Shown here one piece after another: positions 4,563 through 16,537 of a stretch of 64,000 nt of DNA. Every line of letters begins with the position of its first letter. The stretch's first letter is position 1. The stretch lies in NCBI GenBank assembly GCA_010672965.1, contig JAAHFN010000003.1, forward strand, positions 1-64,000, read 5' to 3'. Under the pieces are notes generated by a model. It was given only the letters and a program-made list of their open reading frames with translations. It did no database searches and was not told the origin of the DNA. Both the position numbers and the translations under genes were made by a program. The stretch is from Oscillatoria sp. SIO1A7 (GTDB taxonomy: Bacteria > Cyanobacteriota > Cyanobacteriia > Cyanobacteriales > Laspinemataceae).

Positions 4563-6137
4563 CTATTGTGGCGGAGCTGCTCCAATAACAACTCGTCCGG
4601 CGGGTTTGGTAATGCAAGTAAGCTGGTAACCTTGCTCTTGGCTAAAATCTTTAAAAGCTTTTGGCCCGGGTTCTTTATCGTACTTAATCTCTCCTTCGAT
4701 TATCCGCTTGCAAGTGCCGCAAGCTCCGCTGAGGCACACGGAGTCAATCTCGAAATCTGCATCTTCAGCGGCTTGCAAGATAGTTTGTTCCCCATCCCAA
4801 GGAATCGCCACTTCTTGCCCGGACTCATCTTTATAAAACAAAGCGGGGGCAGAATCCCCAGCGGATGGAGGCGAAGGAGCTGGGGAAGGGGAGGGTGCTG
4901 GTGGGGGTGCTGGAGCCGCTTGGATGGGAGCGGGAACGTTAGCAGTAGAAGAACTGGCATTGGCAGTTGCCGGTGGAGTCGATGGGGCAGGGGCTCCCTC
5001 TCCAAAACTCTCTTCGTTGTAGTTCTCCATAGGGAAACCCAAGCGTTCAAGCATCAGCTTAACCCCTTCCATGAAAGGATTCGGCCCGCAGATATATACC
5101 GTCCGTTCTTTATAATCGCTGGCGATCGCTGACAGCATAGTTTCATTCAAGCGACCTACATAGGCCAGCCAAGCTTCTTCTGGCTCTGGACGAGTAAGGG
5201 TCACCGCCAGCCTAAAATTGCTATAGCGCCCTGCCATCATCTCTAATTCTCGTCGCAAAATAATATCGCGGCTGCTGCGGGCGCTATGCAAAAAGACAAT
5301 ATCCACATCTGCATTAATATCGCACAGATACCGAGACATTGACAGCACTGGCGTAATCCCGCTCCCCGCAGAAATAAGTAGCAATTTTTTAGCAGGATTG
5401 GGAAGGCAAGTAAACTTACCCTTGGGACCGCTAAGTAAAATTTCGCTGCCAACCCGAATATTATCGTGAAGCCAGTTAGAAACCAGGCCGGGTGGTGCGT
5501 CCGGTGCGTGACTTGGAGGCGGAACTCGCTTCACAGTAATTTCCAGAGTATGGGGGCGCGAAGGAGTCGAGGAAATAGAATAGGAACGCGGTATCCGTTT
5601 GCCATTTATTTCCAAATTAAGAGTGACAAACTGCCCCGGCAAGTATTCAAAACGTACCGGCGGGTCTGTAGCAAATACAAAAGTCTTGACATCCCGGGTT
5701 TCATCGATAACCCGCATACAGCGGACGGTTATTTTGCCTTTGCGCCAGACGTTCGAGTCTGCCTCTACCACAACTTGACTCTGCTGGGGCTCTTGGGGGG
5801 CCTTTGCATCTTCTGTCGTCACTTCTTCGACAGTCAAGACGAATCCACCGATCCTGATAACGTCCCCTTGGTGAATCTGGCTGATTTCGTTTCCCTCAAT
5901 GGGTTGATTATTCACTCGCGAGCCATCTGCACTTTTTAGATCGCTATAGCAATACTGCCCGTTCCAGAAGAAAATGCGGCCGTGAATGCGAGAAACATGA
6001 GGGCTATTGAGCTGGATGCCACAGCTTTCGTGACGGCCTATCAGGCACTCATGCTCGCGTATAACGCTCATTTGTGGGGGTGGGGCTTGCTGTTGCGGAT
6101 CCTCTGGTGGGGGAGCGATCGTTCTTATTTTGAGCAT
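4563..6137 (-). CDS. FHA - FAD/NAD(P) reductase - 2Fe-2S ferredoxin fusion
   Basis: The protein has 524 residues and three domains. Residues 1-115 are an FHA domain, with G34-R35 in LIGRHES and S49/H52 in HVSRIHG; these are the residues that grip phosphothreonine. Residues about 130-385 form a ferredoxin-NADP-reductase-type module: RSYSIS binds FAD, ISAGSGITPVLSM binds NAD(P), and ICGPNPFMEGVK is the reductase C-terminal motif. It resembles hybrid-cluster-protein reductases. After a Pro/Ala linker, residues 430-524 are a plant-type 2Fe-2S ferredoxin with C468, C473, C476 and C508. No membrane segment is visible. It follows the polyferredoxin gene on the same strand after 330 bp. By inference it moves electrons from NAD(P)H to a partner recruited through phosphothreonine. 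Confidence 0.85.
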   Translation of the reverse strand: MLKIRTIAPPPEDPQQQAPPPQMSVIREHECLIGRHESCGIQLNSPHVSRIHGRIFFWNGQYCYSDLKSADGSRVNNQPIEGNEISQIHQGDVIRIGGFVLTVEEVTTEDAKAPQEPQQSQVVVEADSNVWRKGKITVRCMRVIDETRDVKTFVFATDPPVRFEYLPGQFVTLNLEINGKRIPRSYSISSTPSRPHTLEITVKRVPPPSHAPDAPPGLVSNWLHDNIRVGSEILLSGPKGKFTCLPNPAKKLLLISAGSGITPVLSMSRYLCDINADVDIVFLHSARSSRDIILRRELEMMAGRYSNFRLAVTLTRPEPEEAWLAYVGRLNETMLSAIASDYKERTVYICGPNPFMEGVKLMLERLGFPMENYNEESFGEGAPAPSTPPATANASSSTANVPAPIQAAPAPPPAPSPSPAPSPPSAGDSAPALFYKDESGQEVAIPWDGEQTILQAAEDADFEIDSVCLSGACGTCKRIIEGEIKYDKEPGPKAFKDFSQEQGYQLTCITKPAGRVVIGAAPPQ

Positions 6138-6467
6138 ATTGAAGAATTTCTTGAGAGTTTTTCAGTTACGGCATGAGAGGGGGCATTGGGCTCACAAGCA
6201 TTGGGCTTTGGGTTGACAACCTGTCCGTTCCCTGAGTCCGTAGTGCTATAAAGCATTTGGATCCTCGATTGTAGTAGAGGCGTTTCGCGCTATGTGCCTG
6301 AAAGGCAGAGCCTGCCCGGAGGGCATACGGCCGGAAAGCCCCTACCCAGAGGTATTGAGTTAAAACCAGTGGAGTCTGTCAAGGTAGTCTTGAATAGTTT
6401 TGCAATTTTTTCCAATGCCCTTCGGCTCTTGGGACCAATGCCAAATTATTTCTTGGCAAACTACTAG

Positions 6468-8765
6468 CTAATTTGTTCGATCTGGATTGTTGGGCTCGGT
6501 TGAATTTGGCGGACGCTTCACTTCGGTGCGATCGGATCCAGTTTCGCCTTGGGTCTGAGCCGGAGAATCGCTATCTGCCCCCGCCAAACCGGGTCGTTTT
6601 ACTTGGGTGCGATCGCTATCTGGCTCTGTCGAAGGTCGTTTTACTTGGGTGCGATCGCTATCTGGCTCTGTCGAAGGTCGTTTTACTTGGGTGCGATCGG
6701 ATCCAGTTTCGCCAGGGGTCTGTGCGGGAGAATCGCTATCTAGCCGGGGGGAACCGGGTCGCCCTACAACGGTGCGATCTGATGCGCTTTTGCCAAAGGT
6801 CCCTGCCCGATCGCTATCTGGCCCTATAGAGCCCGGTCGCCTTACTTGGGTGCGATCTGATGCAGTTTCGCCCGTCGAACCCGGACCTGGTTTAGTGCGA
6901 TCTATCTGCGGAATCCCCTGGAGAGGAACTGCTGTAGCATCTCCCAAGGACATATCGGAAGCAACTCCAGTTTTCTGACTCGGACGGCGTTGGATGCGGG
7001 TTACCCCATCCGGTGGTCCCCAAGCTTCTATAGGGGGCTCGGAGGCAGGGGCGCTGAAAAGCTCTGGAGCCTCATGGCCGAGTTCTTCCAGAATTTTAAA
7101 ATGCGCTTCATCGCTCAGTTGCATTTTCTGGCGCATTTCTCGCAGAGCCTGCAAACTGCTAGCTGGAGTGACGTTGCGATCGTCCAAGGCATTCTGGAGA
7201 AAACCTTTATATACCTGCAAGCGGTCTTGTTTGGTTACATTGGGCAAAACATTGTAAAGCAGTTCCAATTCGTTAGGTTTGAGATCGTCTAGAGAGCGAT
7301 CGCCGAAATAGCCAGAAAGGCTAATGCCCATATTTTTTTCTAGCTTCTTCAGCTCGCGACGCAACTTTTCTCCCTGGCTTTCCAACTTATATTGTTGGCT
7401 GGTACGGTTCCAGGTTCGATAGAGCCAGAGACTGCTCACCATCAGCACTATACCTTGAAACCCGAGCTGCACGGGCAAAGGAAAGCGCAACAGTTCTGGA
7501 CGACCGCCATAAATAAAGAAAAAGTTAAAAGCAAAAAAGGTAGCCGCAGAAAAAACTCTATGTACTGCGGTTTCTTTGAACGCTTTTTTTTGGGCATCAG
7601 TCGCCGATGGATGTTTCCCCAACACAGCAGAGACCGCCGCTTTTTCGATGCCCGTCCAAATTATATAAGCTATCCCTGTGAAGGCAGCAAAGGTCATGGG
7701 TACGGCAACTATTTTAGGGATTGGTATTACCTGACCAAATATATAAAATCCCGGTTTCAAGAGATTGCCCAACTGATTTGGTTCGTGCGCCCAAGCCCCG
7801 GAAAAATAGTAATTAAAATCGCCAGCGTACAAGCCATAATATAGAAAATAGCCCACTACCATACCCACATAACCGTATTGGACTAATTTCCGCCCGGGCT
7901 TAGAAACAATCTCCCCCCAGTAAGATCCTTCGGCATCAATATCCATGCAGGGCTTTCTGCAAGTGATGCAGACACTTTCTTCCTGCCCCTGGCTGTTGAC
8001 GGTGCGACATTTAGACTGGGTAAGGCTCCCTTTTGGTTGAGTATGGGCTTCGCTCCCCAAGAGACCTCTCGGGCCGGTAAAAACCAGTTGCACCATGCCA
8101 AAGGGGCAGACGTAATGGCACCAAGTTCTACCGCCATATACGAAAATCATAGTGATGGCAGATAGAATAGTAGCGAGTAAGAAGCAGGCCAAAAATATGC
8201 GATCCGAGTTAATAAATAGCAGTCGCGAACACAAGCCGAGAAAAAATAAGCCAAATTGCAGGTATAGATGATTTTTGAGAAGCCAAGTGTTTTCCTCAAT
8301 ATCTAGTTTGGGCTGCATACCCAAGGAGCGGGGAATCTGGGACATAAAATAGAGCGGACAGATGCGCCGCCAAGCTTCGTGGCCGAAGGTGAGAACGAAT
8401 ATGACGGCACTGGGAACGACCATGCCCCAAAAAATGCGCGCCCCGATTTGATAAGGTTTTTCCTCAAGGCATTTGCCCTGAACTGCGATACATCGATCGG
8501 GATCTGCTACCACAGCGGGGTCTATGAAAGGATTGCTAAAAGGGCTCGATAGATTGTCATGGGCAGTCAGGGGTGCTGAAAATGGGTCGTAAAATAACGA
8601 TGCAATCAAGACTAGCCATGCGATCGCCAGTATCCACCTAACAATGCGGATATTTTTCTCTGGAATTAAACTGAACACGTTGTTAAAATCTCCTAATCTA
8701 AGATTATGGAAAAGGCTAACTAATAGCACGAGAGCGGTCAAGGAGCGAGGGGAGCAAGGGAGCAA
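6468..8765 (-). CDS. NapH/NosR-like membrane polyferredoxin with Thr-repeat tail
   Basis: The protein has 765 residues. Hydrophobic segments occur near residues 5-20, 42-60, 112-130, 160-205, 295-315, 345-370 and 400-450. Cysteine clusters (RRICPLYFM, CHYVCPFG, then CITCRKPCMD) match the NapH/NosR/CcoG-type 4Fe-4S membrane ferredoxins. The last 150 or so residues are hydrophilic and repetitive. DRTQV(K/R)RP-like motifs occur about eight times, and near 6600-6690 a 14-residue unit (DSDRTQVKRPSTEP) is encoded by near-identical 42-bp DNA repeats. The expected role is passing electrons at the membrane. The reductase with an FHA domain is immediately downstream, and a Ser/Thr kinase gene diverges 516 bp upstream. 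The electron acceptor is unknown. Confidence 0.8.
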   Translation of the reverse strand: MLPCSPRSLTALVLLVSLFHNLRLGDFNNVFSLIPEKNIRIVRWILAIAWLVLIASLFYDPFSAPLTAHDNLSSPFSNPFIDPAVVADPDRCIAVQGKCLEEKPYQIGARIFWGMVVPSAVIFVLTFGHEAWRRICPLYFMSQIPRSLGMQPKLDIEENTWLLKNHLYLQFGLFFLGLCSRLLFINSDRIFLACFLLATILSAITMIFVYGGRTWCHYVCPFGMVQLVFTGPRGLLGSEAHTQPKGSLTQSKCRTVNSQGQEESVCITCRKPCMDIDAEGSYWGEIVSKPGRKLVQYGYVGMVVGYFLYYGLYAGDFNYYFSGAWAHEPNQLGNLLKPGFYIFGQVIPIPKIVAVPMTFAAFTGIAYIIWTGIEKAAVSAVLGKHPSATDAQKKAFKETAVHRVFSAATFFAFNFFFIYGGRPELLRFPLPVQLGFQGIVLMVSSLWLYRTWNRTSQQYKLESQGEKLRRELKKLEKNMGISLSGYFGDRSLDDLKPNELELLYNVLPNVTKQDRLQVYKGFLQNALDDRNVTPASSLQALREMRQKMQLSDEAHFKILEELGHEAPELFSAPASEPPIEAWGPPDGVTRIQRRPSQKTGVASDMSLGDATAVPLQGIPQIDRTKPGPGSTGETASDRTQVRRPGSIGPDSDRAGTFGKSASDRTVVGRPGSPRLDSDSPAQTPGETGSDRTQVKRPSTEPDSDRTQVKRPSTEPDSDRTQVKRPGLAGADSDSPAQTQGETGSDRTEVKRPPNSTEPNNPDRTN

Positions 8766-9281
8766 AGGAGTGGGGGAGCGGTTTTTGCTAGCTCTCGGGT
8801 TTCAGCCCGGTGGTTCGGCTTTAACAGGACTTACGCGCAGACTTTTTTTGTACGGTGTGCTGCAGCGCACCAGAGGCTAGATGTAGCTGTCTCAGGACTT
8901 ACGCAAATTGCACGAATTATAGATATAGCACTACACAGTAAGGTTAGGACGGTTACAAAATGCCACAGCTTACGAAAGGCAAGGCTTTGGCCGATAGCTG
9001 AGAGCTGATAGCTGACCGCTTACTGCTATATAGGGTTTGGTGCGCGGTGCGGCACCCTACAAATAGTATCTCTGCGTAAGTCCTCTGTCTATCCGACAAT
9101 TTGCATAAGTCCTGCTTTTGAACGCTCTAGGGCCAAACGCTTAAAGGCAATTAAGGGCTCTCGTGCCGATCGCTCTCGTGCCGATCGCTCTCGTGCCGAT
9201 CGCTATTACCCCGATCGTTTCTCATGCTGAAGTATCCATAATAAATAATATAAAAGTCCGGATCGGCACCGAGAAGGCCCA
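8766..9281. repeat. Divergent intergenic region with family D termini and a 15-bp tandem repeat
   Basis: Left-type D termini (AGGACTTACGC) lie at 8826 and 8894. Right-type termini (GCGTAAGTCCT and GCATAAGTCCT) end at 9084 and 9113. This fits one element inserted in, or fused with, another. At 9157-9201 GCTCTCGTGCCGATC is repeated three times just before the kinase gene. No gene is visible. The promoters of both divergent genes must lie here, but I cannot assign them. Confidence 0.6.
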
Positions 9282-11747
9282 ATGAAATACTGCATTAATC
9301 CCAATTGCTCGGAACCCGAAAACCCTGATGGAGAGTTATTTTGCCTCTCTTGCAGCTCTCAATTGCTCCTGGCCGGACGCTATTGGGGGGTTAAATTGCT
9401 GCGGACGAGAACCATTGACGATGAAGGTCACGTTTGTTGGACCTTTGAGGCGTCCGAGCAGGGAGCCAGAAGAATTCTCAAAACTTTCCAAGGCAACGAC
9501 CCTTGGTTACTCTCCCGATTTCGGCGGGAAGCAGAAATCTTATGTCAATTGCGACATCCAGGACTCCCCCGCGTCGAGCCCGAGGGATTTTTCCGCTTTA
9601 CTCCCAAGGACAGTTCGGAAACACTCCACTGTCTGGTCATGGAACTGATAGATGGAATAAATTTACTCGAATGGCTGGAAAAGCGGGGAAATCGCCCCAT
9701 CGGCCAAGACGAAGAAAGAATAGCCCTCGACTGGTTGCAGCAACTGGCGGATATCTTGGCTCACGTTCACGATCGCGGCTTTTTCCATCGGGATGTCAAA
9801 CCGTCTAATATCATGCTTAGCTGTCGCGGACCTTTAGTATTGATTGACTTTGGCGAAGCCCGAGATCTAACCCCAGAAGACGTGACAACTGTTTATACTA
9901 AGGGTTACGCCGCACCGGAGCAATACAAAGGCGGAGCCGATCTGCGCTCGGATTGGTTTGGTTTGGGACGTACTTTCGTCCATCTGCTTACCGGCACAGA
10001 CCCCAACGAGCTTGTAGATCCCCAGACTGGGGCGCTAATCTGGCGAGACAAAACAACAGTATCGGAAGCATTACAAGACTTGGTTGACGAGTTGATGGCA
10101 CCGTCGCCAGACCATAGACCTGAAAATGGCCAACAGATTTTATCCCGTTTAGAAATAATCGGCAAAAGACTACCAAAACTTCCTGCCCCCGCACGGGTTC
10201 TAGAAGAGCCAGATAGTTCTGGAGCTGGGTCTTCTGGCAGCCCGTCGTCTGGCAGCCCGTCGTCTAGAGCTAGAAACGGGTCGTCTGGAGCGGGATCGAA
10301 AGCCCCAAATCGTCCGGGTGTTGCCCGGTCTGGGATAGCTGCAGCCGCCGCATTAGCACTCTTTGCCGGTGGAATCTATTATGCTGTCAATCGTCCCGAG
10401 CAAAAAAAAGAACCTGACAGCCCAGTAGAGCAGGTCGAGAACGTTATGGATAAGGCGATGGATAAGGATAGTTGTCCGACGCAGACGGAAGACAATTTGA
10501 GTTGTGGAGAAGAAATTTTACTGACCTCCCGCCTTAATCCATCGGCAAAAAAAGAAGGAGTAAAGGCATTTGCAAAGGGAAAGTACGACCGAGCTGCTGA
10601 ATTGCTGTATAAAGCTAGACAGAAAGACCCCTCAGACCCAGAGATCGCAATTTATCTCAATAATGCTCGCATAGCTAAGGAAGCAGCATATACGATCGCT
10701 GTGGTAGTTCCGATCGCCGACAGCACTTCATCGGCTGAAGAAGTTCTCCGGGGAGTCGCCCAAGCCCAAGATGAGATTAATAAAAATAACCAGGGCATAC
10801 GCCTGAGAGTGTTAATCGCCGATGACGGGAATGATAAGACCCAGGCCAAAAATATTGCCGATCGCATTGCAGTTGCTGCCAACGTTATTGCTACAATAGG
10901 TCATTTTTCTAGCAGCGTAACTGAGGCCGTAGCCGATAGATATAAAGAACGGGGATTAGTCTTGATTTCGCCCACCAGTACGTCGGTGTATCTCTCAGAA
11001 CTCGGCGAGAACAATCAATTTTTTTTCCGCACGGTACAGAGCGATCGCGTTACCGCTCAGGCATTAGTCGAATACCTCAAAAAAAATCAGCACGGCAAAG
11101 CTGCTGTATTTTATAATGCCGGGGCAGATTACAGTCTCTCACTGCGCAATGAATTCGGCAGTCGCTTTCGGGGCGAGCTTGAGGTAGCAGAAGAGTTTGA
11201 TTGGTATAGCCCTGCGTTCGATCTAAACACTTACTTGGGCTATATGAGGCAGTACGGGGATATAGCGATGGTTTTGCTTCCCGATAGCAGCACCCGGACC
11301 GCAGCTATAGAAGCGATTTCTCAAGCAAAATCGGAAGGCTATGCGATTGTAGGCGGAGATAGCCTTTATATTCCCGAGCTGAAAAGGGATATCGCAGAAA
11401 AAGTTGTAGTGGCTGTCCCCTGGGAGAGCGGCTGCCATAAAACTTCTGACTTTTATAAGGGAGCTGCGAAGCTATGGCAAACATTAGATATGAGTTGGCG
11501 CGCTGCCTTAGCTTATGATGCCGTTGCAGTTGTTACAGCCGCCCTGGAACAACAACCTCAAAGCCGATTTGAACTTCAGCAGACGCTCTTAGAGAAAGAT
11601 TTTCAAGCTAGCGGCGCTACCGGATTGATTGAGTTTGAAGATAATGGCGATCGCAGTAATGGGGCGATCGAATTGGTGCAAGTAACCAAGCAAAGCGATG
11701 AAAGTTATGATTTTCAGCCCATTCAATGTTCCCCAGCTAATAATTAG
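9282..11747 (+). CDS. Receptor Ser/Thr kinase with periplasmic amino-acid-binding-type sensor
   Basis: The protein has 821 residues. It starts with a zinc-ribbon-like segment (CINPNCSEPENPDGELFC..C), common in cyanobacterial kinases. The kinase domain spans residues about 30-290: RILKTF holds the ATP lysine, HRDVKPSNIML the catalytic D171, LIDFGEA the DFG motif and GYAAPEQY the activation-loop end. A Ser/Gly/Pro linker leads to a membrane helix near residues 350-368. The outer part has a short TPR-like stretch and then a Leu/Ile/Val-binding (type 1 periplasmic binding protein) domain from AYTIAVVVPIADS to the end. By inference it senses a small ligand outside and phosphorylates Ser/Thr inside. 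It diverges from the polyferredoxin gene. Candidate targets are that protein's repeated Thr motifs; this is untested. Confidence 0.85.
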   Translation: MKYCINPNCSEPENPDGELFCLSCSSQLLLAGRYWGVKLLRTRTIDDEGHVCWTFEASEQGARRILKTFQGNDPWLLSRFRREAEILCQLRHPGLPRVEPEGFFRFTPKDSSETLHCLVMELIDGINLLEWLEKRGNRPIGQDEERIALDWLQQLADILAHVHDRGFFHRDVKPSNIMLSCRGPLVLIDFGEARDLTPEDVTTVYTKGYAAPEQYKGGADLRSDWFGLGRTFVHLLTGTDPNELVDPQTGALIWRDKTTVSEALQDLVDELMAPSPDHRPENGQQILSRLEIIGKRLPKLPAPARVLEEPDSSGAGSSGSPSSGSPSSRARNGSSGAGSKAPNRPGVARSGIAAAAALALFAGGIYYAVNRPEQKKEPDSPVEQVENVMDKAMDKDSCPTQTEDNLSCGEEILLTSRLNPSAKKEGVKAFAKGKYDRAAELLYKARQKDPSDPEIAIYLNNARIAKEAAYTIAVVVPIADSTSSAEEVLRGVAQAQDEINKNNQGIRLRVLIADDGNDKTQAKNIADRIAVAANVIATIGHFSSSVTEAVADRYKERGLVLISPTSTSVYLSELGENNQFFFRTVQSDRVTAQALVEYLKKNQHGKAAVFYNAGADYSLSLRNEFGSRFRGELEVAEEFDWYSPAFDLNTYLGYMRQYGDIAMVLLPDSSTRTAAIEAISQAKSEGYAIVGGDSLYIPELKRDIAEKVVVAVPWESGCHKTSDFYKGAAKLWQTLDMSWRAALAYDAVAVVTAALEQQPQSRFELQQTLLEKDFQASGATGLIEFEDNGDRSNGAIELVQVTKQSDESYDFQPIQCSPANN

Positions 11748-13174: not shown

Positions 13175-16100
13175 TTATTCCTTCAAGGGTAGAGTTACTG
13201 TAAAAGTTGTGCCGAGGCCAACTTTGCTTTCTACTGCAATCTTGCCCCCGTGGATATCTAAGGCATTTTTGACAATCGCCAATCCCAAACCAGTACCGGG
13301 TATATTGCCGACATTTTTGCCTCGATAGAATCTATTAAATAATCGAGGCAAGTCTTCTGGCTCTATGCCAATACCCTGGTCTTGAATTCGGAAGCAGACT
13401 CCTTGGGGATTGGGAATCAACTCAAACTTTACCGTCTCTCCGCCGGGGGAATACTCGATCGCATTTAACAGCAAGTTGATCAGAATTTGCCGCAACAGCT
13501 TTTCATCTACCAGGGCTTCTGTGAGGATAGCTTCTGGGTTTTTATTATCGGCAGTAGAGCGATCGGCCACCGAGAAACCTTGACAAATAAAATCTATCTG
13601 CGGTGCCGAGGAGTATATTCCTTTCACCTGTTTGACAAGAGAGCGGCAAAAATCTAGCAAATTTATTGGTTTTGGCTGGAACTCCATTCCTACTGATTCG
13701 GCCTGTCCCATTACCAGAATCTCTTCTAGCATAGTGGTCAAATGGATTGCCGCAGTTTGAATTCGCTCTATATGGGAAAAACTTTTCTGGGCATTCTCCT
13801 CCTCCACATAAAACTCCAATAGATCGGCTGAGGATAGGATAGTCGCCAGAGGCGTGCGGAACTCGTGGGAAGCAGTGGTGATAAAACGGGTTTTTAGCTC
13901 GCTGAGTTCTCGTTCTTGTTCCAGAGCCTTATGGATTTCTTGCGTAGCTTGCTTGCGATCGGTGATATCAGCGACAATCCCGGTGCGGCGATAGATATTT
14001 CCTAGTTCGTCACGAATGGGAAAAATCCGCTCCCCAACCCAACGCACGACTCCATCGGGTCGCACGATTCGATATTCCCGAGAAATCTCGTCGGGCAATT
14101 GTTCGGGCAGTTGGTCGTTTTTGCCAAGGGGAGCGACTATGCGATCGCGATCGGCAGGATGAATGCTATCGGGCAACCAGATAGAGTTTTCATAAGCGCT
14201 ATAGCAAGATCGTCCCCAGATTTTCTCATAAGCAGGACTGACATACAGCAACTCGCTAAGATCTGCCGAGGCCACCCAAAAAATCTCTTGGATATTTTCG
14301 GTAATTTGGCGAAACCGCTGTTCCGATTCTCGCAAAGCCTCCTGGGCTAGATGGCGCTCCGTGATGTCGCGCTGAACGCCAAAGTGACCGATAAGATTGC
14401 CTTCATCGTTATAAAGGCAAATATATTCCCCTTCAATCCAAATCGGCGTTCCATCCAGCCGACGACCGCTTGTTTCTAAGGTTAATCTGCCTTTATCAAA
14501 AAAGCGCCGCCACACTTGTTTGCCATAGGTTAGGTCATGTGCAAAAAAATGTTTTGGGGTCAGACCGATAAACTCCTCGCGGGTGGCGCCATACTGAGTA
14601 AGCATGGCATCATTAACCTTGGTAATGCGCTGGTGGGAAAATACATATTCGAGAATTTTGTCTTTATCCACTGTCTCGTCCCAGCGCACCGGGGAATCGA
14701 GCATCATAAAAAAGAAGCCTTCGAGGGACTGGGAGAAAAATAGCTCTAGCTGGTTTTGGCTTTCTCGCAGGGCTACTGACGCTGCTTTGCGATCGCTAAT
14801 ATCTCTTCCTACTACCTGAAGTTCTTGGGGAATGCCCCGCTCGTCTCGGATAGTATAGCTTTCCCAGGCAATCCAGCGCCAACCTGAAGGAGTTAACATC
14901 CTCAGCTCTACGCTAGAGCGTGCCTGGGGTTCCCCCTGTCCTTGCATAAATTCTAGAGTTGCGGGTAAATCGTTTGGATGTACCAAGGAGGTGAAACTTC
15001 GGCCTATCGGCTCTTGGCGATCGCAGCCTAATTTCTGGCAGCAGGCATCGTTGACAAAAGTCAACTTTCCTTCTAAATCTACCCGCACGATTAACTCTTG
15101 CTGCGACTCAATAATACCTCGATATCTTTCTTTGCTAGTTCTCAGGGCTATTTGCGTTTTTTTTCGCTCTGTAATATCCAGTTTTGTCACCCATATTCGC
15201 TGCAATACCCCGTCTTCAACAATACCGACTAAGTGATTTAAAAAGTATTGATAATTCCCCGACTTATCCAATTCCTTAGATTCCAGATTGCTCAGGCGAT
15301 ATCCAGAACGAATCAAAGTTCGAGTTCCATCGATATTGTGAATCTGGTTCGGCGGCTCTAGCTCGCTAATTTTTTTCCCAACCATTCCCGCGCCGGAAGC
15401 CAAGCCATACACCCGAGCCATAACATCGTTGCACTCAGCAATATGGCTAGTTTTGACTATTTCCTGCACTATCTCCTCTTCCGGTCGCTCTATAGATATA
15501 GGTCTATCGAATTCTAGGCAGTAAATAGCTTCTGAAATGCTATTCACAAAAGCTCTGTAGCGTTCTTCACTTTTTTTCAGAGCTTCTTCAGCAGCAACCC
15601 GAGCCGTTATATCTCTAATCGTACCTACTACAAATTTTTTGCCGCTGGCATCTACAAATAGCGATTTTTTCGTAGATATTACATGACCCCTTCCATTAGC
15701 ATCGGTAATATTTGCCTCGCTTTCCGTGCAATTCCCACTTGCCAGGACTATTTCATCGGTTTTTCTAAAATTATCCGCTATTTCTGGGGAAAATATTTCA
15801 TAGTCGCTTTTGCCAATTAAATTATCCCGACTCTGACCGAGTAACTGGCAGCTCGCCTCATTTAATATAATATACTTATGGAGTTCGTCCTTGACAAAAA
15901 TAGGATCGGGATTGGTATTTATGATATGCTGCCAAAACTGTTCTGAATCTTTAAGGTTGCTCTCTTTATCTTTGCGTTCGGTCGTGTCGCGGGCAACGAC
16001 CATAGCCTCGTTTTCTGACATCGGGGAAATCTTCGCCTCTAACCAAACCTCATTACCTCCGACGGGCAGACTGTATTCTATTTTAACCGGTTCCTTGCTA

Positions 16101-16537
16101 TCTAAAGCCCCTCGAATCTTACCGATAAAAAATTGATCTCGATCTTTTGTAAAAACCTCTGATATACTTTTCCCCAGGAATTGAGCGGGGGGTTTGTACC
16201 TTTCTGTTGCGATCGGGGCGATTTTAATATATCGTCCCTCGCGATTGAGAACCAAAACCACATCGGTCATAGTTGCAAACAGCGATCGCAATTCTGCTTC
16301 TGCTTTTTTGCAGTTCGCTATTTCTGTTGGCACGCAAACGCAAATTGCTCCTCCAGCTTTTCCCCAGTTATCTGTCAGGGGTGAATACTCCCATTCATGC
16401 AATCTATCGTTTATTTCTGTAGGATCCCCAACCAAAGGAAAATCATACATGGCTTTTATATTTTGATTTGTTAAATTTTCTCTTTTGCTATCGCATCTCG
16501 AATCTCTGGGGTAGGGAAAATTTTTAAAGGTTGCCAT
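13175..16537 (-). CDS. Multi-PAS sensor histidine kinase
   Basis: The protein has 1120 residues and no visible membrane helix, so it is probably a cytoplasmic sensor. About six PAS/PAC units run from residue 75 to 860; the recurring junctions ITERK, ISDRK, ITERH and ITDRK mark the PAC ends. The kinase core follows. The H-box is TTASHEFRTPLATIL, the N-box NLLLNAIEYSP, and the G-boxes are DQGIGIEPEDLPRLF and GTGLGLAIVK. There is no receiver domain and no response regulator next door, so the partner is elsewhere. I cannot say which PAS domains bind a ligand. The ATG at 16537 has no obvious ribosome site, so the first 30 residues are uncertain. Confidence 0.9.
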   Translation of the reverse strand: MATFKNFPYPRDSRCDSKRENLTNQNIKAMYDFPLVGDPTEINDRLHEWEYSPLTDNWGKAGGAICVCVPTEIANCKKAEAELRSLFATMTDVVLVLNREGRYIKIAPIATERYKPPAQFLGKSISEVFTKDRDQFFIGKIRGALDSKEPVKIEYSLPVGGNEVWLEAKISPMSENEAMVVARDTTERKDKESNLKDSEQFWQHIINTNPDPIFVKDELHKYIILNEASCQLLGQSRDNLIGKSDYEIFSPEIADNFRKTDEIVLASGNCTESEANITDANGRGHVISTKKSLFVDASGKKFVVGTIRDITARVAAEEALKKSEERYRAFVNSISEAIYCLEFDRPISIERPEEEIVQEIVKTSHIAECNDVMARVYGLASGAGMVGKKISELEPPNQIHNIDGTRTLIRSGYRLSNLESKELDKSGNYQYFLNHLVGIVEDGVLQRIWVTKLDITERKKTQIALRTSKERYRGIIESQQELIVRVDLEGKLTFVNDACCQKLGCDRQEPIGRSFTSLVHPNDLPATLEFMQGQGEPQARSSVELRMLTPSGWRWIAWESYTIRDERGIPQELQVVGRDISDRKAASVALRESQNQLELFFSQSLEGFFFMMLDSPVRWDETVDKDKILEYVFSHQRITKVNDAMLTQYGATREEFIGLTPKHFFAHDLTYGKQVWRRFFDKGRLTLETSGRRLDGTPIWIEGEYICLYNDEGNLIGHFGVQRDITERHLAQEALRESEQRFRQITENIQEIFWVASADLSELLYVSPAYEKIWGRSCYSAYENSIWLPDSIHPADRDRIVAPLGKNDQLPEQLPDEISREYRIVRPDGVVRWVGERIFPIRDELGNIYRRTGIVADITDRKQATQEIHKALEQERELSELKTRFITTASHEFRTPLATILSSADLLEFYVEEENAQKSFSHIERIQTAAIHLTTMLEEILVMGQAESVGMEFQPKPINLLDFCRSLVKQVKGIYSSAPQIDFICQGFSVADRSTADNKNPEAILTEALVDEKLLRQILINLLLNAIEYSPGGETVKFELIPNPQGVCFRIQDQGIGIEPEDLPRLFNRFYRGKNVGNIPGTGLGLAIVKNALDIHGGKIAVESKVGLGTTFTVTLPLKE

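Follow-up and report, generated by a model that had tools for sequence, protein, structure and literature searches.

We find that three neighbouring genes in the window, by which we mean the whole 64,000-nucleotide stretch that was analysed (positions 1 to 64,000 of contig JAAHFN010000003.1, from Oscillatoria sp. SIO1A7), may encode a phosphothreonine-gated electron-transfer module, a reading to which we give a probability of roughly two in three. In such a module a receptor Ser/Thr kinase would phosphorylate the threonine-rich tail of a membrane iron-sulphur protein, the FHA domain of a reductase would dock on the phosphorylated tail, and electrons could then move from NAD(P)H to the membrane protein or back. 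Comparison among genomes lends good support to docking of the FHA domain onto the tail, and many cyanobacteria appear to carry such a switch of kinase, tail and FHA-reductase. The features in question are the following.

4563..6137, minus strand: FHA-FAD/NAD(P)-[2Fe-2S] reductase of 524 residues (Pfam, alignments, AlphaFold model, Foldseek)
5847..6044, minus strand: FHA domain of the reductase, with phosphothreonine residues G34, R35, S49 and H52, as well as N76, intact (Pfam, alignment)
6468..8678, minus strand, GTG start: NapH-like membrane [4Fe-4S] protein (Pfam Fer4_5, homologue alignment)
6468..7046, minus strand: disordered tail of the membrane protein, residues 574-765, with repeats of the DRTQVKRP type; suggested target of the kinase and docking site for the FHA domain (predicted model, motif analysis)
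9282..11747, plus strand: receptor Ser/Thr kinase with a four-cysteine prefix, a kinase domain, a transmembrane helix at 351-369 and a Peripla_BP_6/ANF domain (Pfam, transmembrane prediction)

The kinase gene is transcribed divergently from the other two and lies outside their operon. A first-pass annotation of the sequence had proposed this arrangement, and its description of the three genes holds: Pfam and a check of the residues confirm an FHA domain with its four phosphothreonine-gripping residues, a Fer4_5 match and several DRT repeats confirm a membrane iron-sulphur protein with a Thr-repeat tail, and Pkinase and Peripla_BP_6/ANF_receptor matches confirm a kinase with a periplasmic ligand-binding domain.

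The co-occurrence of the two redox genes speaks for the proposed module. In a sample of 391 genomes from the order, the membrane protein is present in 66 of the 67 genomes with an FHA-reductase versus 92 of the 324 without one (Fisher p = 5e-29, with the window's own genome excluded and kinship between genomes ignored), and the sole genome with the reductase alone, G582, is 76% complete. In a sample of 386 genomes from the phylum, 50 have the membrane protein and 15, our own included, have a strong FHA-reductase; all 15 fall within the 50, and leaving out the window's own genome gives 14 of 14. The reductase family thus hardly ever occurs where the membrane protein is missing, whereas the membrane protein is often found without the reductase. 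In most loci the two genes adjoin each other. Where they do, the membrane protein has either a tail with the Thr motif or, in other clades, an FHA domain of its own together with a cyclic-nucleotide-binding (cNMP) domain. Homologous loci in which the FHA domain or the Thr tail is missing without pattern, named beforehand as evidence that would speak against the proposal, were looked for in this neighbourhood comparison, and the outcome favoured the proposal.

The reductase has four Pfam domains, all over the cut-off: FHA (32-97, 1.2e-14), FAD_binding_6 (146-242), NAD_binding_1 (254-360) and the ferredoxin domain Fer2 (439-512). It also has the motifs of the FAD/[2Fe-2S] ferredoxin-reductase superfamily (R184/Y186/S187, AGSGITP from 257 and C350-G-P) and the cysteines of a plant-type ferredoxin (C468/C473/C476/C508), and Foldseek matches its AlphaFold model to NqrF, cytochrome b5 reductase and phthalate dioxygenase reductase. 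The FHA domain, whose closest solved relatives are Rv0020c (FhaA) and GarA, keeps the phosphopeptide-site residues (G-R, S-R-x-H, N), and the first four of them, G34, R35, S49 and H52, are invariant across 29 named homologues. It is thus predicted from its intact site to bind phosphothreonine peptides. Among 97 distinct reductases compared, those linked to the membrane protein keep these residues with one clear exception. One clade within family f8, whose genes do not adjoin the membrane protein (L134, L135, L256-L261, L269; L numbers denote loci of the comparison), has lost the FHA R and S, and the likewise unlinked L279 has lost S and H, while the L131 reductase is a truncated copy. Decay of the FHA residues is thus confined, with that single exception, to reductases that are no longer linked to the membrane protein.

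Fetched members of the window's reductase family carry the FHA domain except for truncated or split copies. No FHA match was found in more distant reductases, proteobacterial GbcB-like ones included, and the sole FHA-bearing copy among the proteobacterial relatives found is from Crenothrix. This copy (L173:7329-9095, Crenothrix sp. D3, a gammaproteobacterium) has no membrane protein nearby and ferredoxin-like open reading frames on its flanks. An identity as GbcB, the glycine betaine monooxygenase reductase, was rejected for the window reductase, which scores 339 bits versus an NCBIfam equivalog cut-off of 500.

The tail of the window's membrane protein contains DRTQV(K/R)RP four times, as well as DRTVVGRP and DRTEVKRP among others. 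The pattern T-x-[VIL]-x(0-2)-[RK] was derived from the window together with the tails examined first, and was then retested on a held-out set of loci fetched later (18 clusters, with the expectation obtained from 2000 shuffles of each tail). In this set it was observed 25 times versus 6.8 expected, the tighter form T-x-[VIL]-[RK] 22 times versus 2.8 expected (about eight-fold, with a shuffle maximum of 9) and TQ[VIL][RK] 8 times versus 0.22; clustering of the held-out set at 75% left 9 versus 1.5. The C-termini of membrane proteins without an FHA-reductase, used as controls, gave 5 versus 4.4. Around the 214 threonines of 34 non-redundant tails from other genomes, acidic residues at -2 (49/20), aliphatic residues at +1 and at +2 (69/33) and basic residues at +3 (86/36) each exceed two-fold, and no such profile surrounds the 232 serines of the same tails; it is Thr, not Ser, that occupies the motif [D/E]-x-T-x-[V/I/L]-[K/R]. 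The motif is common to tails that otherwise cannot be aligned, and a Leptolyngbya-like operon clade has a variant of it, roughly D-x-x-T-x-A-x-T-I-A-[KR]. Because the motif is enriched about eight-fold in the held-out tails of other species, the repeats of the window are more than chance, and a chance origin of the tail repeats was rejected on the held-out test together with the Ser control. A preference for phosphothreonine over phosphoserine is a hallmark of FHA recognition. The first-pass annotation had seen a weak point in that the repeat matches no known FHA consensus, and this doubt is answered in part: the FHA-bound peptides of DgcB, GarA and OdhI have Glu at -2 and a hydrophobic residue at +2/+3, which the acidic -2 and hydrophobic +2 of the tails fit (PMC6733907).

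A rival reading places the bound threonine within the reductase itself. As in GarA and OdhI, which offer the nearest known logic, the FHA domain could bind a phosphothreonine in its own linker, or in that of another copy, and so switch the reductase off, with the tail serving as a decoy or belonging to some other partner. The reductases of the FHA+cNMP class do have linkers with acidic-T-x-aliphatic motifs such as NEPTMIDL and DDTIIDI, in 7 of 9 lineages versus 2.75 expected (p = 0.003, for a pattern picked after looking). In the class with Thr tails, which includes the window, it is the tails that are enriched and the linkers are not (5 of 39 versus 5.6 expected), so that a phosphothreonine motif flanking the FHA domain in the same chain, as GarA/OdhI-type control would have it, is not enriched there. 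Class and motif are complementary, which fits a swap in which partner would bear the phosphothreonine, and we consider autoinhibition in cis unlikely.

The window kinase has the features of a Hanks-type Ser/Thr receptor kinase: a Pkinase domain (1.1e-25) with HRD 169 and DFG 189 intact, one transmembrane helix and an outside ligand domain (Peripla_BP_6, 6e-22). It starts (window 9282-9365) with a prefix of four cysteines (CINPNC...CLSC) that also occurs in the f57 kinases at the locus and is possibly a metal- or redox-sensing knuckle. A kinase is no more than 1.1 kb away in 16 of the 73 FHA-reductase loci versus 1 of 56 without the reductase, that one being the paralogue in the window's own genome (p = 5e-4), and collapse at 75% identity leaves 9 of 41 versus 0 of 35 (p = 0.003). 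When presence of a kinase, here counted up to 2.3 kb away, is mapped on the tree of the reductases, it requires 12 changes, of which at least 6 gains or losses are forced. In 7 species a kinase of the WD40 type, the membrane protein and the FHA-reductase form a same-strand operon, with the kinase 4-88 bp before the membrane protein, and periplasmic-receptor kinases resembling that of the window adjoin the locus in two other families. A gene for a kinase with a periplasmic-binding-protein (PBP) domain lies 24-46 bp downstream of the reductase in L141, L232 and L233 and 1 kb downstream in L236, a four-cysteine kinase with a PBP-like domain as in the window is divergent and one gene away in L265, L274 and L275, and L151, L246, L248 and L262 have downstream kinases, of the WD40 type in those checked. 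The gene in between in the three divergent loci (L265:11079-12335, L274:2441-3784, L275:4058-5314) looks by eye like a STAND/NB-ARC-like ATPase. To judge from gene order and the tree, sensor kinases recur next to the locus in independent cases. Kinases bearing ANF (PBP-like) and WD40 domains had already been described from cyanobacteria (PMC2176072).

The window's own genome has three kinase-PBP genes, two of which flank its two membrane-protein paralogues, while the third is about 10 kb from one paralogue. The paralogous membrane protein with NAPTEVRRVDSG repeats (L049:10266-15200, G000:C105:90.3-95.2 kb) has a kinase-PBP gene in the same orientation 133 bp upstream and, by eye, a DUF4157-like open reading frame of the extracellular contractile injection system type downstream. 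The tail of the paralogue has NAPTEVRR repeats and no reductase adjoins it, and it could share the window's reductase. Simple block duplication was rejected as the source of its kinase, since the two flanking kinases are about 32% identical versus 69% for the membrane proteins.

The recurrence of kinases at the locus would also be expected if the FHA domain docked on the autophosphorylated kinase or on another phosphoprotein, with the tail motif serving as some other substrate and the co-occurrence reflecting a shared pathway only. Mycobacterial FHA domains bind kinase phospho-sites, which counts for this explanation. However, most loci keep the FHA domain and the Thr motif with no kinase adjoining, the motif is Thr-specific and FHA-like, and the decay of the FHA residues tracks lost linkage to the membrane protein, so we hold this to be improbable. 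Even less likely is an ordinary redox pair in which the tail repeats are a low-complexity expansion and the kinase a chance neighbour. The tail in the window does show clear repeat expansion, and kinases abound (94 in the window's genome), but the motif is kept in the 34 non-redundant tails and in the held-out set, kinase neighbours exceed those at control loci and the FHA residues are under constraint; the held-out test already disfavours such a pair.

If the module operates as proposed, the receptor kinase would sense an extracytoplasmic small molecule through its periplasmic-binding-protein domain and would thereby be switched on (or off). The motif, the side of the membrane and the gene linkage suggest that it would then phosphorylate the repeated threonines of the cytoplasmic tail. 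In what is the best-supported step, the FHA domain would grip these phosphothreonines and one or several reductases could dock on a tail. From the chemistry of the domains, electrons would then run from NAD(P)H to FAD, to the [2Fe-2S] centre, to the membrane [4Fe-4S] protein and from there to a quinone or to an acceptor across the membrane, and the reverse is possible. We infer the phosphorylation of the tail, the docking, the ligand and the route and direction of the electrons, with flow from NAD(P)H to the membrane favoured because the reductase has the fold of NqrF, cytochrome b5 reductase and phthalate dioxygenase reductase.

Several points weigh against this reading. In locus L272 the reductase is linked to the membrane protein and has nevertheless lost its FHA residues. 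The membrane protein of the FHA+cNMP loci has an FHA domain and no Thr tail, so docking there must differ, perhaps through the Thr motifs of the reductase linker. Collapse of the kinase linkage at 65% identity leaves a modest 6 of 27 versus 0 of 19 (p = 0.03), and the kinases next to the locus are of mixed type (PBP, WD40 and others). Most FHA-reductase loci have no adjoining kinase and the compared cyanobacterial genomes have 10-94 kinases each, so a given kinase and tail may be only loosely paired. The support for the module is comparative, and phosphate on the tail, binding of the FHA domain to the phosphopeptide and electron flow are its predictions. On balance, the co-occurrence, the Thr motif, the constraint on the FHA domain and the recurrent kinases still favour the docking and kinase interpretation of the first-pass annotation.

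The membrane protein matches Fer4_5 (PF12801) at 22.4 bits versus a gathering score of 22, and its homologue in L077 at 30.2. Alignment of homologues places its probable start at GTG 8678, while the open-reading-frame caller chose TTG 8765, from which the residue numbers are counted. Seven (nearly) invariant cysteines (136, 216, 220, 253, 266, 269, 273) lie in predicted cytoplasmic loops and the pair 92/99 in a predicted outside loop. An identity as CcoG/RdxA/FixG was rejected (18.2 bits versus an NCBIfam cut-off of 316.7), Foldseek gave no PDB fold match for the protein, and its PDB sequence matches (spike glycoproteins and others) fall in the C-terminal helical region and were set aside as spurious. 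Residues 574-765 have no structure in the predicted model. We place this tail in the cytoplasm because homologues carry FHA, cNMP, EF-hand or ferredoxin domains at the same C-terminal position.

Among membrane proteins that adjoin an FHA-reductase the C-terminus is either a Thr-rich tail or an FHA+cNMP module, apart from a few long forms, and those without an FHA-reductase mostly end in a helical region followed by a cNMP-binding domain, or in EF-hands, with one ferredoxin fusion. In that fusion (L121:6433-8343) the membrane protein runs straight into a C-terminal plant-type ferredoxin, hinting that a [2Fe-2S] domain is its direct partner. Versions with a terminal pair of EF-hands (L085:5857-8085, L083:6125-8296, L101:826-3054) suggest calcium control of the same redox hub. 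Slr0593 of Synechocystis, a "cAMP binding membrane protein" for which the literature searched gave just an expression line, may be a member of the cNMP type. In Moorena-type loci (L147:5129-5635, L077:3769-4353) a cytochrome c-like gene precedes that of the membrane protein in the same orientation, and its product might accept or donate electrons on the other face of the membrane. Since other lineages have cNMP-binding, EF-hand or FHA+cNMP domains in its place, the tail seems to belong to a set of exchangeable control inputs. At about even odds, the family could be a modular cyanobacterial membrane electron conduit whose cytoplasmic end takes swappable inputs (a phosphothreonine tail with FHA-reductase, FHA+cNMP, cNMP or EF-hand), through which kinases, cyclic nucleotides or calcium gate reducing power into or out of the membrane; the window version would be a complex assembled by phosphothreonine docking. 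A large PAS-rich sensor histidine kinase is encoded near the locus (window 13175-16537), with no apparent link to it.

If true, the proposed module would tie bacterial Ser/Thr kinase signalling directly to the control of membrane electron flow. The targets of cyanobacterial kinases are mostly unknown despite the dozens of kinases per genome, and the module gives a concrete and testable substrate motif, binding domain and readout. It also presents an uncharacterised membrane iron-sulphur family as a hub with swappable control domains. A search of the open-access literature, which could miss a subscription paper, found no described system of an FHA-reductase and a polyferredoxin, and no FHA-pyridine-nucleotide reductase that docks on a membrane redox protein with Thr repeats, in agreement with the earlier statement that no system of this layout was known.

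The known systems each resemble a part of the proposed module. Among electron-transfer proteins, the NapH/NosR/CcoG type shares Fer4_5 with CxxxCP and CxxCxxxC in a multi-helix membrane protein, but the similarity is weak and the window family has an outside cysteine pair and C-terminal control modules. Reductases of the GbcB, phthalate dioxygenase reductase and NqrF type share the FAD-NAD-ferredoxin fold, with GbcB the best NCBIfam match and the other two matching by structure, but the window reductase is below the GbcB cut-off and has an N-terminal FHA domain. In PknF-Rv1747 and PknH-EmbR an FHA domain is fused to an effector under the control of a membrane kinase (PMC2877116), but there the FHA domain is joined to an ABC transporter or to a transcription regulator, with no electron transfer and no Thr-repeat-tailed partner. 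The PknG-GarA and PknG-OdhI systems of Actinobacteria are alike in that a Ser/Thr kinase uses an FHA protein to act on an enzyme of metabolism; GarA, like Rv0020c, is a sequence relative of the window FHA domain, and PknG-OdhI control in Corynebacterium runs under a periplasmic binding protein, the GlnH/GlnX sensor (PMC9769921). GarA and OdhI, however, are stand-alone FHA inhibitors that fold on their own phosphothreonine, whereas the window FHA domain is fused to a redox enzyme and the Thr motif sits on a separate membrane redox protein.

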